Source: Nonomuraea helvata (GTDB lineage: Bacteria > Actinomycetota > Actinomycetes > Streptosporangiales > Streptosporangiaceae). Taken from it: DNA of 64,000 nt. The stretch lies in the NCBI RefSeq assembly GCF_039535785.1, contig NZ_BAAAXV010000009.1, positions 1,550,001-1,614,000 of the forward strand, given 5' to 3'. A model generated the notes under the pieces. It made no database searches, was not told the DNA's origin, and saw nothing but the letters and a program-made list of their open reading frames with translations. Positions within the stretch are counted from its first letter, which is position 1. The number at the start of each line of letters is the position of its first letter. Positions 2,105-20,949 of this stretch are shown here, in pieces. The translations under genes and the position numbers were made by a program.

Positions 2105-2350
2105 CTCCCGTTTCCCTTCTCGTTGGAGGGCAACCAGTGGATCATGTGCTCGCTGCTGTGTCCCTGCGGCGAGCAGGAGGAACACGGGTCGGGACAGCCT
2201 CCCTGTGCTGATAGGGCCATCCATAGGTCGTACGACGTCACTCGTGGAGAGAGCCCCTACCCACCATGCCCAGCGCCGCTCTCGTCCACGCCGAGCCGCT
2301 CGCGGGTGTGGATGGGCAGGTCGGTGCATGGATGGGTTCAGGTGTCCATT

Positions 2351-3337
2351 TCATAGCTCATAGCGGTACCACCGCCGCGGGTTCCCATCCTCGTGCAGCC
2401 ACAGCGTCCCGTCTCTGCCGATCTTCCCCCGGGCCCAGCCGGTCGGGTGCCGGCCCTCCGGTAGCAGCAGGCGCTCACGGTTCGCCTTGGTGACGGCTCC
2501 GCCCTGACGGCGGGCTCTGCGGATCTCCCAGCGGAAGCCGCCGCCCGCTCGCCGCTGGTCGAGGAAAGCAAGTTCAGCGCCGGAGACGGCAAGGCCGCGG
2601 CATCCCGTGACGGGGTTCGGTGTGACGCTCCGGACGCCGTCAGCGTCGATCTCGATCAGCGGGAAGTCGGTGTAGGGGTACGCGTGGACCAGATCAGAGC
2701 CGACATTGAGCGCATAGCAGTCGCACCAGACGACGTCAGGAGTGTAGGACGGCGCCATCCAGGGCGGGCCTCCGTCGCTGTCCCAGCGCGCCAGACCGAT
2801 CATCAACCCGTAGGAGCGAGTGCCGTCCTGGTTGGGGAACCAGTAGTTCGACTCGTCGAAGTAGCTGATCCAGATGCTGCCCCGAGCATCCGTCATGAGC
2901 TGCTCGATGCCGTCACCGACGTAGAAAGCCGACCGAGTCTGCCCGTCTCCGTCGATCACCCGGACGTTGTCGGTGAGGTGGAGTTCCCCCTCGGGCACCG
3001 GCTCCCAGTGGCGCTCACGGTCGACGCCCACAGGCTCACAGCGGGCGGCGGCCAGCACGATGCCCTCGCCGAGGGTGTCGATGCGGTTGAACCACAGGCC
3101 GAGATCCGTCAGTGGGATCTCGCGGATCTCGGCTCCGTCGCAGATGACGGCGATCGCGTCGTAGCGCGGGGGCGGCCAGAGCTCGGAGAAGCCGGGGATG
3201 GGGGTGAAGTCTTGGCCGGGGTCGGCGACCAGGGCGACGAGTCGGCCACGGTGGTCGATGGTCGAGGTCAGGACCTCATGACGGGCGTAGCGGTCGGGAA
3301 GGGTCGCGTGCAGCGCGAGCCGGCGGTCAGCGACCAT
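2351..3337 (-). CDS. Conserved hypothetical protein, possible beta-propeller
   Basis: 328 residues with no signal peptide or membrane segment. ATG 3337 follows GAGAAAGG at good spacing. The protein alternates short beta strands with D/G turns and aromatic residues (GSIWISYFDESNYW, GTLWLHEDGNPRRWYRYEL), which suggests a WD/Kelch-like propeller of cytoplasmic type. Related hypothetical proteins are common in Streptomyces and Streptosporangiales (recalled, not searched). It is divergent from the SARP regulator at 3454, with 116 bases between them. No catalytic motif could be identified, so no function is proposed. Confidence 0.7.
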   Translation of the reverse strand: MVADRRLALHATLPDRYARHEVLTSTIDHRGRLVALVADPGQDFTPIPGFSELWPPPRYDAIAVICDGAEIREIPLTDLGLWFNRIDTLGEGIVLAAARCEPVGVDRERHWEPVPEGELHLTDNVRVIDGDGQTRSAFYVGDGIEQLMTDARGSIWISYFDESNYWFPNQDGTRSYGLMIGLARWDSDGGPPWMAPSYTPDVVWCDCYALNVGSDLVHAYPYTDFPLIEIDADGVRSVTPNPVTGCRGLAVSGAELAFLDQRRAGGGFRWEIRRARRQGGAVTKANRERLLLPEGRHPTGWARGKIGRDGTLWLHEDGNPRRWYRYEL

Positions 3338-18080: not shown

Positions 18081-18088
18081 TCCCGTCG

Positions 18089-18133
18089 GCCCGTACGGTG
18101 GGCGCCTGCCCCAAAGGCGCCCGCCGTACGGGC
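18089..18133 (+). terminator. Strong stem-loop after the rsgA/GNAT unit
   Basis: GCCCGTACGG (18089-18098) pairs with CCGTACGGGC (18124-18133), and the stem continues inward through GGGCGCCT/AGGCGCCC around a short loop, with one mismatch. It begins nine bases after the acetyltransferase stop. No long T-run follows, as is common for high-GC actinomycete terminators. Confidence 0.75.
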
Positions 18134-18222
18134 GACTACAATGTGTTCACCATCAATGACCATGGGTAAGCATGCGGGTGGACAGCTTCTCCCGAGCCGC
18201 GACCTGATCTGAGGGGTGGACA

Positions 18223-19311
18223 ATGGCATCCGCCGATCTGCCGACGCCTGACTTCACCTTCGACCCGAATGCGCCCGGGGCGTGTCTCGCCGGGGTCAGG
18301 CCGTACCGTACCGGTTCGTTCCGGCTCGACGCCCAGCTGGATTCCGGCAGGTTCGTCGTGCACAATTACGGCCACGGCGGCTGCGGCATCACGTTGAGCT
18401 GGGGGTGTGCCGCCAAGGTCAAGGAGATGGTGCAGAAGCGCATCGCCGTGGCGCATGACACGGAGGTCGCGGTGCTCGGCGCCGGGGTCATGGGGATGAC
18501 CGCCGCCACTTTGCTGCTCGAGCTCGGCCTCAGGGTCACGATCTATTCGGACCGCGACCCGGCCCAGACCACGTCGTTCAAGGCGGGCGGCCACTGGGCC
18601 GTGTCCGTCGTCAAGTACGAGGGCAAGGAGAACGAGCTCAAGGACATCCTGAGAACGTCCTACACGACCTTCAAGAACAGCATCGGCCATGGGTTCGGCG
18701 TATCCGAGCGCCCCAACTTCACGCCCAAGCCGTCGCCCAATCTCGACGTCGTGGAGCAGCTCGTGCCGGGGCTGCTGCCGGCTCGCGTCCCGCTGACGCG
18801 CCTGCCGTTCGAAGGACACACCAAGCCGGGGTTCAAGTATCAGACGTTGCTGGTGGAGCCGCCGATCTTCCTCCCGCGACTGGAAAGCGACCTGAAGGCG
18901 CGCGGCGTCATGTTCGTGCATCGGAACTTCACGAGCAAGCAGCACGTGTTCACGTCGCTGACGCAGAAGCTCATCGTCAACTGCACAGGACTCGGCGCGA
19001 AGGTGCTGTGGAACGACTCGAAGATGGTTCCCGTCAAGGGGCAGCTCGCGATGCTGCCGGCGCAGCCCGACCTGCAATATCTGTACGGCCAGGACGGCTA
19101 CATGTTCCCCCGCGCGGACCATGTCGTCATCGGCGGCACCTTCGAAGAGGGCGTGAACAACGAGGTGGCCAGCAAAACGGTGTGCAAGGACCTGGTCAAG
19201 CACATTGCCGCGCTCTTCGGCAAGGCGGCGCCCAGGCCGATGCCGGAAATCCACATCCACCACCCGCGCAACACGGCAATGGTCGATCCGGCGATGCCGG
19301 CCCGCGTCTGA
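18223..19311 (+). CDS. D-amino-acid-oxidase-like flavoenzyme with circularly permuted domain order
   Basis: A FAD amine oxidase that would turn a D-amino acid into an alpha-keto acid, ammonia and peroxide. ATG 18223 follows GAGGGGTGG. Oddly, the segment that ends normal D-amino-acid oxidases ([15 protein letters not shown], then [19 protein letters not shown]) is at residues about 24-66 here. The FAD dinucleotide fold [20 protein letters not shown], which normally starts the protein, comes next at about residue 82, followed by [14 protein letters not shown], the substrate domain and IVNCTGLGA. The chain ends at [10 protein letters not shown], the point where the C-terminal motif would normally begin. 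All key FAD and substrate motifs are present once. It is 9 bases upstream of the decarboxylase gene. Confidence 0.85.
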
Positions 19312-19320
19312 TCCGGGTCC

Positions 19321-20949
19321 GTGGAAATGGCCTTCACCGTCGCCGACTACATCCTGACGCGACTGAGCCAGCAGCAGGTCAACACGCTTTTCGGCGTGCC
19401 GGCCGCCTTCTGCGCGCCGCTGTTCGACGCGGTCGGCCCCCATGGCATCAAATCGGTCGTCACCGCGAGCGATCTGGAGGCCGGTTACGCGGCCGACGGA
19501 TACGCGCGGACGAAGGGCCTGGGGGCCGTGGCGGTCGCCAACGGGGTCGGCATGTTGAGCATGATCAACGCGATTGCCGGCGCCTTTGTCGAGCGCAGCC
19601 CGGTCGTCGTCCTCAATGGCGGCCCGAACGCCGGCAACCTCAACAACTTGACGGACTTCGACGTCCTGTTCTCGCATTCGACCGGGCAGCCCGACACGGA
19701 CCTGGCCGCGTACAGGCTCGTCACCGCGAGCGCCGCGCGTGCCGGAAAGGCCTCGGAAGTGCCGGCCGTGGTGGACAGCGCGATCGCGACCGCGATCAGG
19801 AAGAAGCGGCCGGTCTATGTCGAGATCAACAGGGACATCTGGACTCAGGCCTGCCCGATGCCGGCCGGGCCGCTGCCGCTCGCCATTCCGGCGGCGGGCA
19901 CGGAGCAGCAGCTCGCGGCCACGATCGTCGGGCTGATCCGCGCCGCGATGTCGCCGGTCATTCTCGTCGGCACCGAGATCCAGCGTTACGGGCTCGCCGG
20001 CAAGGTGGCCGAATTGATCGCCAAGCTGGGCGTCCGCTGGTCGACCGCGCTGCTCGCCAAGTCGGTGCTGCCCGAGCAGGGCAACGGCTGGGTCGGGGTC
20101 TATGCCCCGCCGCATTCCACCCCTGCCGCCAGGAACGCCGTCGAGCACGCGGATCTGCTCGTGATGCTCGGCTGCGTGTTCCCCAGCAACTACGCGACGC
20201 TGGTGACGACCGGCGGCAACCGCATCGTCTCGGCCTATGACGGCAAGGTGAAGATCAAGGGCGGTCCCAAGCAGAACGCGGAGATCGGCGCTCTTGTGTC
20301 GGCGCTCGTCACCGAGGCGGCGAAAGCGCCACCGAAGCCGGTGCCCGCCGCGGTGGATCCGCCCGCTCCCGCGCCGCCCACAGGCCCGCTGACCTACCGC
20401 CAGGTTTTCGAGCGCATAGGCGCCGCGCTGGACGACTCCTGGCTCGTGGTTCCCGATACGTTCCTGGGCGTCGCCTCGGCCGCGAACCTGCCGGTGAAGG
20501 GGCGCGACTCGTTCATGTGCGGCGCCGTGTGGGCCTCGATCGGGCATTCCGTGGCCGCCGCGGTCGGCGCGTCGTTCGGGTCGAGCAGGCGGCCCCTGGT
20601 CATCTGCGGCGACGGCGGTTTCCACATGACCGCGCAGGCGCTCTCCACTCTCGCGCGGTACGCCCGCGACCCGGTCGTCGTGGTCATCGACAACGGCATC
20701 TACGCCTTCGAACAGTTCCTCATCGACGACGCGTACTTCGGCAATCCGAGCGCGCAGCCGAGGCCGTACGTGGTGCTCAATCGGTGGGACTTCGTCACAT
20801 TCGCCAACGGGCTCGGCGTGCAGTCCGCCCAGTCGGTCAACACCGCGGCGGCCTTCGATCAGGCCCTCGCCACGGCGAAGGCGTCCGGCGCCCCGGCCCT
20901 GATCGTCGCGAAGGTCGATCCGCACGGCCTCCCGGCCGAGCTCTCCTAG
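19321..20949 (+). CDS. Thiamine-diphosphate-dependent alpha-keto acid decarboxylase (pyruvate/indolepyruvate decarboxylase-like)
   Basis: A 542-residue ThDP enzyme that would decarboxylate a 2-keto acid to an aldehyde. Three-domain layout: PYR domain with the catalytic glutamate in ASDLEAGYAADGYAR (residue about 58), central domain (about 190-330), and PP domain with GDGGFHMTAQALS to VIDNGIYAFEQF; the usual NN is DN, keeping the metal-ligating Asn. The HH pair of pyruvate decarboxylases is only SHSTG here. GTG 19321 or ATG 19327 may start it. Immediately behind the oxidase gene, so its keto-acid product is the likely substrate. Confidence 0.88.
   Translation: MEMAFTVADYILTRLSQQQVNTLFGVPAAFCAPLFDAVGPHGIKSVVTASDLEAGYAADGYARTKGLGAVAVANGVGMLSMINAIAGAFVERSPVVVLNGGPNAGNLNNLTDFDVLFSHSTGQPDTDLAAYRLVTASAARAGKASEVPAVVDSAIATAIRKKRPVYVEINRDIWTQACPMPAGPLPLAIPAAGTEQQLAATIVGLIRAAMSPVILVGTEIQRYGLAGKVAELIAKLGVRWSTALLAKSVLPEQGNGWVGVYAPPHSTPAARNAVEHADLLVMLGCVFPSNYATLVTTGGNRIVSAYDGKVKIKGGPKQNAEIGALVSALVTEAAKAPPKPVPAAVDPPAPAPPTGPLTYRQVFERIGAALDDSWLVVPDTFLGVASAANLPVKGRDSFMCGAVWASIGHSVAAAVGASFGSSRRPLVICGDGGFHMTAQALSTLARYARDPVVVVIDNGIYAFEQFLIDDAYFGNPSAQPRPYVVLNRWDFVTFANGLGVQSAQSVNTAAAFDQALATAKASGAPALIVAKVDPHGLPAELS

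Follow-up and report, generated by a model that had tools for sequence, protein, structure and literature searches.

Sequence comparison confirms a naturally occurring, circularly permuted D-amino-acid oxidase (DAAO) in Nonomuraea helvata, encoded by one open reading frame and with its two segments in inverted order. DAAO, a flavoenzyme familiar from textbooks, finds use in biocatalysis. The frame lies in a stretch of 64,000 nucleotides (the window) covering positions 1,550,001 to 1,614,000 of contig NZ_BAAAXV010000009.1. The 16S rRNA of this genome shares 99.1% identity with that of Nonomuraea gerenzanensis, whose genome also aligns with 5 kb of the window at 86.4%, in keeping with Nonomuraea or a near relative within Streptosporangiaceae. 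Taken as a whole, the data are best explained, with considerable confidence, by a permuted DAAO for which one permutation event suffices, which would oxidise a D-amino acid by means of FAD and would have a ThDP-dependent partner. The features of the locus are as follows.

18211..18216, + strand: GAGGGG, read directly, a probable ribosome-binding site of the permuted gene
18223..19311, + strand: circularly permuted DAAO-like FAD enzyme, ATG start, 362 aa
18223..18288, + strand: residues 1-22, new N-terminal tail
18289..18441, + strand: residues 23-73, transposed canonical C-terminal segment (GVRPYR strand, HNYGHGG, then helix)
18442..18462, + strand: residues 74-80, join of the old C-terminal helix to the old N-terminal strand
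18463..19215, + strand: residues 81-331, Rossmann start (GAGVMG) through the substrate domain
19216..19308, + strand: residues 332-362, new C-terminal tail past the cut
19321..20949, + strand: ThDP-dependent 2-oxo-acid decarboxylase-like enzyme, 542 codons, starting 9 bases past the stop of the permuted gene

A profile built from 11 canonical bacterial DAAOs (alignment A6) matches the window protein in two pieces of inverted order, with residues 23-72 corresponding to positions 283-332 (i-E 7.9e-21) and residues 77-331 to positions 13-269 (i-E 1.2e-43). A sequence-only reading of this DNA had proposed a circular permutation of DAAO, with the motif that normally closes the enzyme near the N-terminus and the FAD dinucleotide fold behind it. 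The comparison supports that proposal and both placements, the C-terminal motifs lying at residues 24-35 and 45-63 and the FAD fold at 82-101. The chain had also been said to stop about where the C-terminal motif would begin, and it ends 31 residues past the last canonical match at residue 331. The inverted order is confirmed as far beyond chance: residues 1-77 alone score 67.1 bits against the canonical profile, compared with a best of 7.8 bits in a shuffle control (2000 shuffles, 1197 reported). The Pfam DAO profile finds the window protein at 2.2e-28, likewise in two stretches. In the window's genome its positions 2-298 fall at C9:1568466-1569221 (5.6e-21), with positions 305-351 upstream in the same frame at C9:1568280-1568423 (5.7e-4). 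A phmmer search of the PDB aligns human D-aspartate oxidase (6rkf) in the same manner, its residues 13-252 with 80-313 of the window protein and 270-336 with 13-72, and a profile-profile match to the canonical DAAOs (A6) reaches E 8.5e-44 over residues 76-336.

The YGHG, RPxR and Rossmann GxGxxG motifs are each present once in the window protein, as the earlier reading held, the GxGxxG pattern additionally matching GHGGCG within the HNYGHGG motif. Reading all three + strand frames by eye, across 18081-18222 and the 300 bases past the stop, revealed no second motif copy. Nor did a scan of 73 motif-bearing ORFs (several of them the same gene listed under different ids) find any with the motif twice, using a pattern that misses many canonical DAAOs.

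The same arrangement recurs throughout the family. The C-terminal segment comes first in all 39 permuted proteins (one per record, the window's among them), and the canonical DAAO profile matches 33/33 canonical proteins in one piece, 11 of these having built the test profile. The permuted rows comprise 24 from Alphaproteobacteria (named records or class and family samples), eight from a Pseudomonadota sample whose class is not given, six from Streptosporangiaceae, the window among them, and one metagenomic contig. Left out of the 39 were interrupted copies (L010, L052), near copies (L033, L079, L088), the incomplete L089, seven further matches from the genus and the second locus of genome G428; left out of the canonical set were L047, which lacks the motif, and L137-L139, weak DAO matches also without it. 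The permuted order is inherited across the family, and its genes are under purifying selection, with dN/dS of 0.09-0.43 in nine permuted pairs and values below 1 in both segments in the three pairs split by segment. An artefact of misassembly, gene fusion or chance has nothing in its favour and is rejected as vanishingly improbable given the same order in 39 different records, complete plasmids among them, the one copy of each motif, the purifying selection and the shuffle control.

Close relatives of the window protein occur in both actinobacteria and proteobacteria. Five other genomes of the window's family hold whole-length matches of 63-72%, a Bradyrhizobium zhengyangense homologue (L009) matches at 66% over nearly its whole length, and a homologue in a Xanthobacteraceae metagenome-assembled genome matches at 69%, also over nearly the whole length, in an interrupted copy. 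Permuted order was further found in records of Nonomuraea gerenzanensis, Bradyrhizobium elkanii, Rhizobium ruizarguesonis, Niveispirillum and Kozakia, and in one of Mesorhizobium onobrychidis, where the copy is interrupted. Genome samples were scored on the best few candidates per genome, so that the counts are lower bounds. In the window's genus, full-length collinear matches occur in at least 8/54 genomes, counting the window's own, and three more have partial matches. Around the Bradyrhizobium genome, at least 14/385 genomes of its class and at least 10/248 of its family match at 1e-30, the centre genome being in both counts, and at least 15/299 of its phylum match at 1e-12, seven of which are genomes already found. 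A sample of the window's phylum gave matches at 1e-10 in 32/396 genomes, the sole full-length one being the window's own genome, and 19 other matches of this sample, fetched as loci, have canonical order.

Interrupted permuted copies span 2206-3280 of locus L010 (Xanthobacteraceae metagenome-assembled genome) and 7983-9046 of L052 (Mesorhizobium plasmid). One genome of the window's family carries a second, distant gene (G428:C104:2384-3337) with one collinear match to residues 23-343 at 26%.

The number of permutation events was addressed with a tree for which the two segments were aligned separately and then concatenated, so that segment order is absent from the data. All 39 permuted rows fall on one side of one branch (bootstrap 100, SH-aLRT 99), and the split between permuted and canonical is present in 100% of 200 bootstrap trees, in a tree that has no outgroup, draws its canonical rows almost only from the window's phylum and includes twelve rows of odd letter make-up, the window's among them. 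Since the permuted rows lie on one side of one branch, a single permutation event suffices on the sampled tree. Canonical order is probably ancestral, judging from the order of the wider DAO family, as the Pfam DAO profile and the other DAO proteins of the window's genome are canonical. The missing outgroup and the narrow canonical sampling speak for more than one permutation event, or for a reversion to the canonical arrangement. Both are improbable given that one change suffices, that the aligned members, judged by eye, have their new ends in a common stretch and that the DAO profile and the genome's other DAO proteins share the canonical arrangement. The window's own clade (10 rows) brings together Streptosporangiaceae, Bradyrhizobium and its kin, and a metagenomic contig, a mixture of taxa that fits horizontal transfer.

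Over 190 Alphaproteobacteria genomes, scored on the best 11 candidates per genome, the canonical profile matches at least 13 at 1e-12. Of these, 11 carry the permuted form already in the set, and two (G666, G776) are weak matches without the motif, which is why the canonical rows of the tree include no Alphaproteobacteria. Counts of bacterial DAAOs would change accordingly, with the permuted form in 11/13 of the alphaproteobacterial genomes matched among these best candidates.

The ancestor of the family would have been a canonical DAAO with the FAD Rossmann strand first and the GxRPxR strand, HNYGHGG and helix last. At the sequence level, its C-terminal helix is seen to have been fused to its N-terminal strand almost without a linker, and new ends to have been opened between the last helix of the substrate domain and the GxRPxR strand. 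Between GHG and the opening G of GxGxxG, the permuted proteins carry 29-38 residues (for L051 the script's pattern misfired and gave 66, against 33 counted by eye). In canonical proteins, GHG is followed by at least 19 residues and the Rossmann motif is preceded by as few as ~10; by this comparison the ends are fused almost directly. The natural permutant shows that the ends of DAAO can be joined nearly linker-free and reopened elsewhere, making it a ready scaffold for engineering.

The permutant protein should fold like DAAO. AlphaFold models made from 5 and 7 sequences have mean pLDDT of 50.1 and 53.5, with a pTM of 0.61 for the second. In the second model (pLDDT 53.5), a short turn links a helix at residues 56-77 to Rossmann beta-1 at 81-85, with block pLDDT of 76-90 over residues 61-110. 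The earlier expectation that the N-terminal segment would sit at the FAD site is borne out in part: the modelled run of helix 56-77 into beta-1 fits a placement of the transposed motif's helix there, and the models leave residues 1-32 and 269-362 without confident structure. Foldseek gives a DAAO (1c0k) as the top match of both low-confidence models, and VIA-align places DAAOs and D-aspartate oxidases at Z of about 9. The unrelated Rossmann protein 2dg2 comes first for the first model (Z 10.2, above DAAO), and other unrelated Rossmann proteins are close behind for the second, one at Z 8.8. DAAO is among the best fold matches of models that are poor outside the FAD core.

Many permuted proteins begin with a putative export signal. 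A Tat-like signal, scored by a simple pattern as RRxx plus a hydrophobic stretch before the domain, is predicted in 25/39 permuted and 0/33 canonical proteins, a contrast confounded with taxonomy because nearly every canonical row belongs to the window's phylum. Scoring is limited for L072, which starts at a contig edge, L125, which has a stop just upstream, and the canonical L048, cut by a false anchor. By group, the signal was found in 18/24 Alphaproteobacteria, 7/8 of the Pseudomonadota sample and 0/6 Streptosporangiaceae, and 16 of the 25 Tat-like proteins also have a lipobox-like motif. From these patterns, most proteobacterial permuted members appear to be Tat-exported, many with a lipobox. 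By the same simple pattern the window protein has no twin-arginine signal before its domain, and its clade and the two rhizobial plasmid rows have no Tat-like signal. The co-occurrence makes it testable whether a natural permutation alters the destination of an enzyme.

Among known enzymes, the family is closest to the DAAOs and D-aspartate oxidases (PF01266 DAO; 6rkf, 1c0k, 1an9, 7ct4). These share the FAD Rossmann motif, HNYGHGG and the equivalents of R283 and Y228, and match the window protein significantly over both segments; the permuted family differs in its inverted segments, in ends that lie elsewhere and in the Tat-like start of many relatives. The canonical bacterial DAAOs (A6) match both parts of the window protein but have canonical order (33/33) and showed no Tat-like signal by the simple pattern. 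ThiO and monomeric sarcosine oxidase belong to the same FAD fold class with weak sequence and fold matches, although the window protein scores 49.6 bits against the ThiO model TIGR02352, far below the cut-off of 250.8. The profile matched 60 PDB sequences, and no solved permuted relative was seen in this set: 17 are DAAOs or D-aspartate oxidases that align in two blocks, the FAD block lying towards the N-terminus or, in 9vpf, the motif block towards the C-terminus, and the remainder are Rossmann-only or marginal. In one study (PMC2916828), monoamine oxidase and electron transfer flavoprotein are described as having sheets that are permuted relative to each other. A search of the open-access PMC full-text literature found no description of a permuted DAAO. 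The Tat-like export signals of many members and the ThDP neighbour are new here.

The residues expected of a DAAO are retained in the window protein. R283 and Y228 are the substrate-binding residues of DAAO; those of the pig enzyme align with R26 and Y293, respectively, and R26 is invariant in 26/26 aligned permuted proteins. The Y228 equivalent is kept in the window's branch and absent from the Tat-lipoprotein subgroup. The HNYGHGG signature stands at residues 47-53 and the GxGxxG of the FAD-binding beta-alpha-beta unit, GAGVMG, at residues 86-91, a motif from which FAD binding is very likely. In the proposed reaction, R26 and Y293 would hold a D-amino acid while its alpha carbon is oxidised, giving an imino acid and FADH2. 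The imino acid would hydrolyse to a 2-oxo acid and ammonia, and O2 or a respiratory carrier would take the electrons and reoxidise the flavin.

A true permutant may instead have changed its chemistry, acting as an FAD amine/imino-acid oxidase or dehydrogenase on a substrate other than a free D-amino acid. Such a change would suit an identity to canonical DAAOs of just about 23-30% over the main part, the loss of the Y228 equivalent in the Tat-lipoprotein subgroup and a Kozakia cytochrome c gene after the permuted gene, which hints at a dehydrogenase. It is nonetheless unlikely: the window protein keeps both substrate-binding equivalents and HNYGHGG, and in the PDB its sequence is matched best by oxidases of D-aspartate and D-amino acids, with glycine oxidases far weaker.

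The ThDP enzyme encoded next to the permuted gene in the window has three TPP domains, as do indolepyruvate, phenylpyruvate and pyruvate decarboxylases, and it matches pyruvate decarboxylases along most of their length. It scores 215.3 bits against TIGR03394, below the cut-off of 554.5. A homologue was found in the fetched flank of 11/30 permuted loci (window, L050-L053, L091-L094, L100, L102; L107, a duplicate of L055, was excluded, and L087, L088 and L099 are short contigs), and the adjacent pairing persists in loci whose permuted protein is as little as 32% identical. The other 19 loci, some with short flanks, have no adjacent ThDP gene of this type; one of the loci, L098, has a different TPP enzyme nearby and is excluded from the 11. 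The permuted and ThDP genes converge in L100 and L102, where both ThDP enzymes begin Tat-like by eye. E464 and H119 are kept in the window ThDP enzyme and its eight aligned relatives, and in all nine an invariant Asp (D51) takes the place of the Glu of pyruvate decarboxylase. In pyruvate decarboxylase this Glu is the cofactor-activating residue, and its replacement by Asp makes the reaction of the ThDP enzymes uncertain.

Where the two genes are adjacent, the 2-oxo acid of the permuted enzyme probably passes to the ThDP decarboxylase, which would probably turn it into an aldehyde and CO2. An obligatory ThDP partner is ruled out by the 19/30 loci with no adjacent gene and by the genomes behind them: of 16 permuted-gene genomes with no adjacent partner, three have one elsewhere at 1e-60, leaving 13 with no close homologue at that threshold. 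These same counts lend some weight to a further reading, in which the decarboxylase is an unrelated neighbour and the permuted enzyme works alone in D-amino-acid catabolism. That reading is a serious minority possibility, opposed by the adjacency of the pair in Streptosporangiaceae and on three rhizobial plasmids, its convergent arrangement in two more genomes and the Tat-like beginnings of both proteins in those two. Transfer of the 2-oxo acid to an adjacent partner is still preferred.

A broader history can be put forward tentatively. One ancient permutation may have founded an exported class of DAAO or dehydrogenase (Tat, often lipoprotein) that is now the main alphaproteobacterial form, and the moved N-terminus may ease export. 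A cytosolic branch would later have passed to plasmids and actinobacteria as an oxidase-decarboxylase cassette. This reading is weakened by the confounding of the Tat contrast with taxonomy, and is rather doubtful as a whole.

Several loci have other neighbours. Two rhizobial plasmids (L051 6414-10741 and L053 6539-10765) carry a cassette of three genes, for a berberine-bridge-like FAD oxidase, the permuted DAAO and the ThDP enzyme, in which the berberine-bridge-like oxidase, called from domains in L051 and from homology in L053, precedes the pair; transposase genes are annotated nearby. In the Kozakia locus (L056 7890-9550), hydrolase genes lie before the permuted gene and a cytochrome c gene after it. 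Phage records gave no match to the window protein, and scans of viral contigs found three distinct contigs with a relative of the permuted protein. The copy on L089 is without its C-terminal part. In two IMG/VR contigs (L087 1882-4983 and L089 1-2454), the permuted gene adjoins an ORF that by eye resembles a phage terminase.
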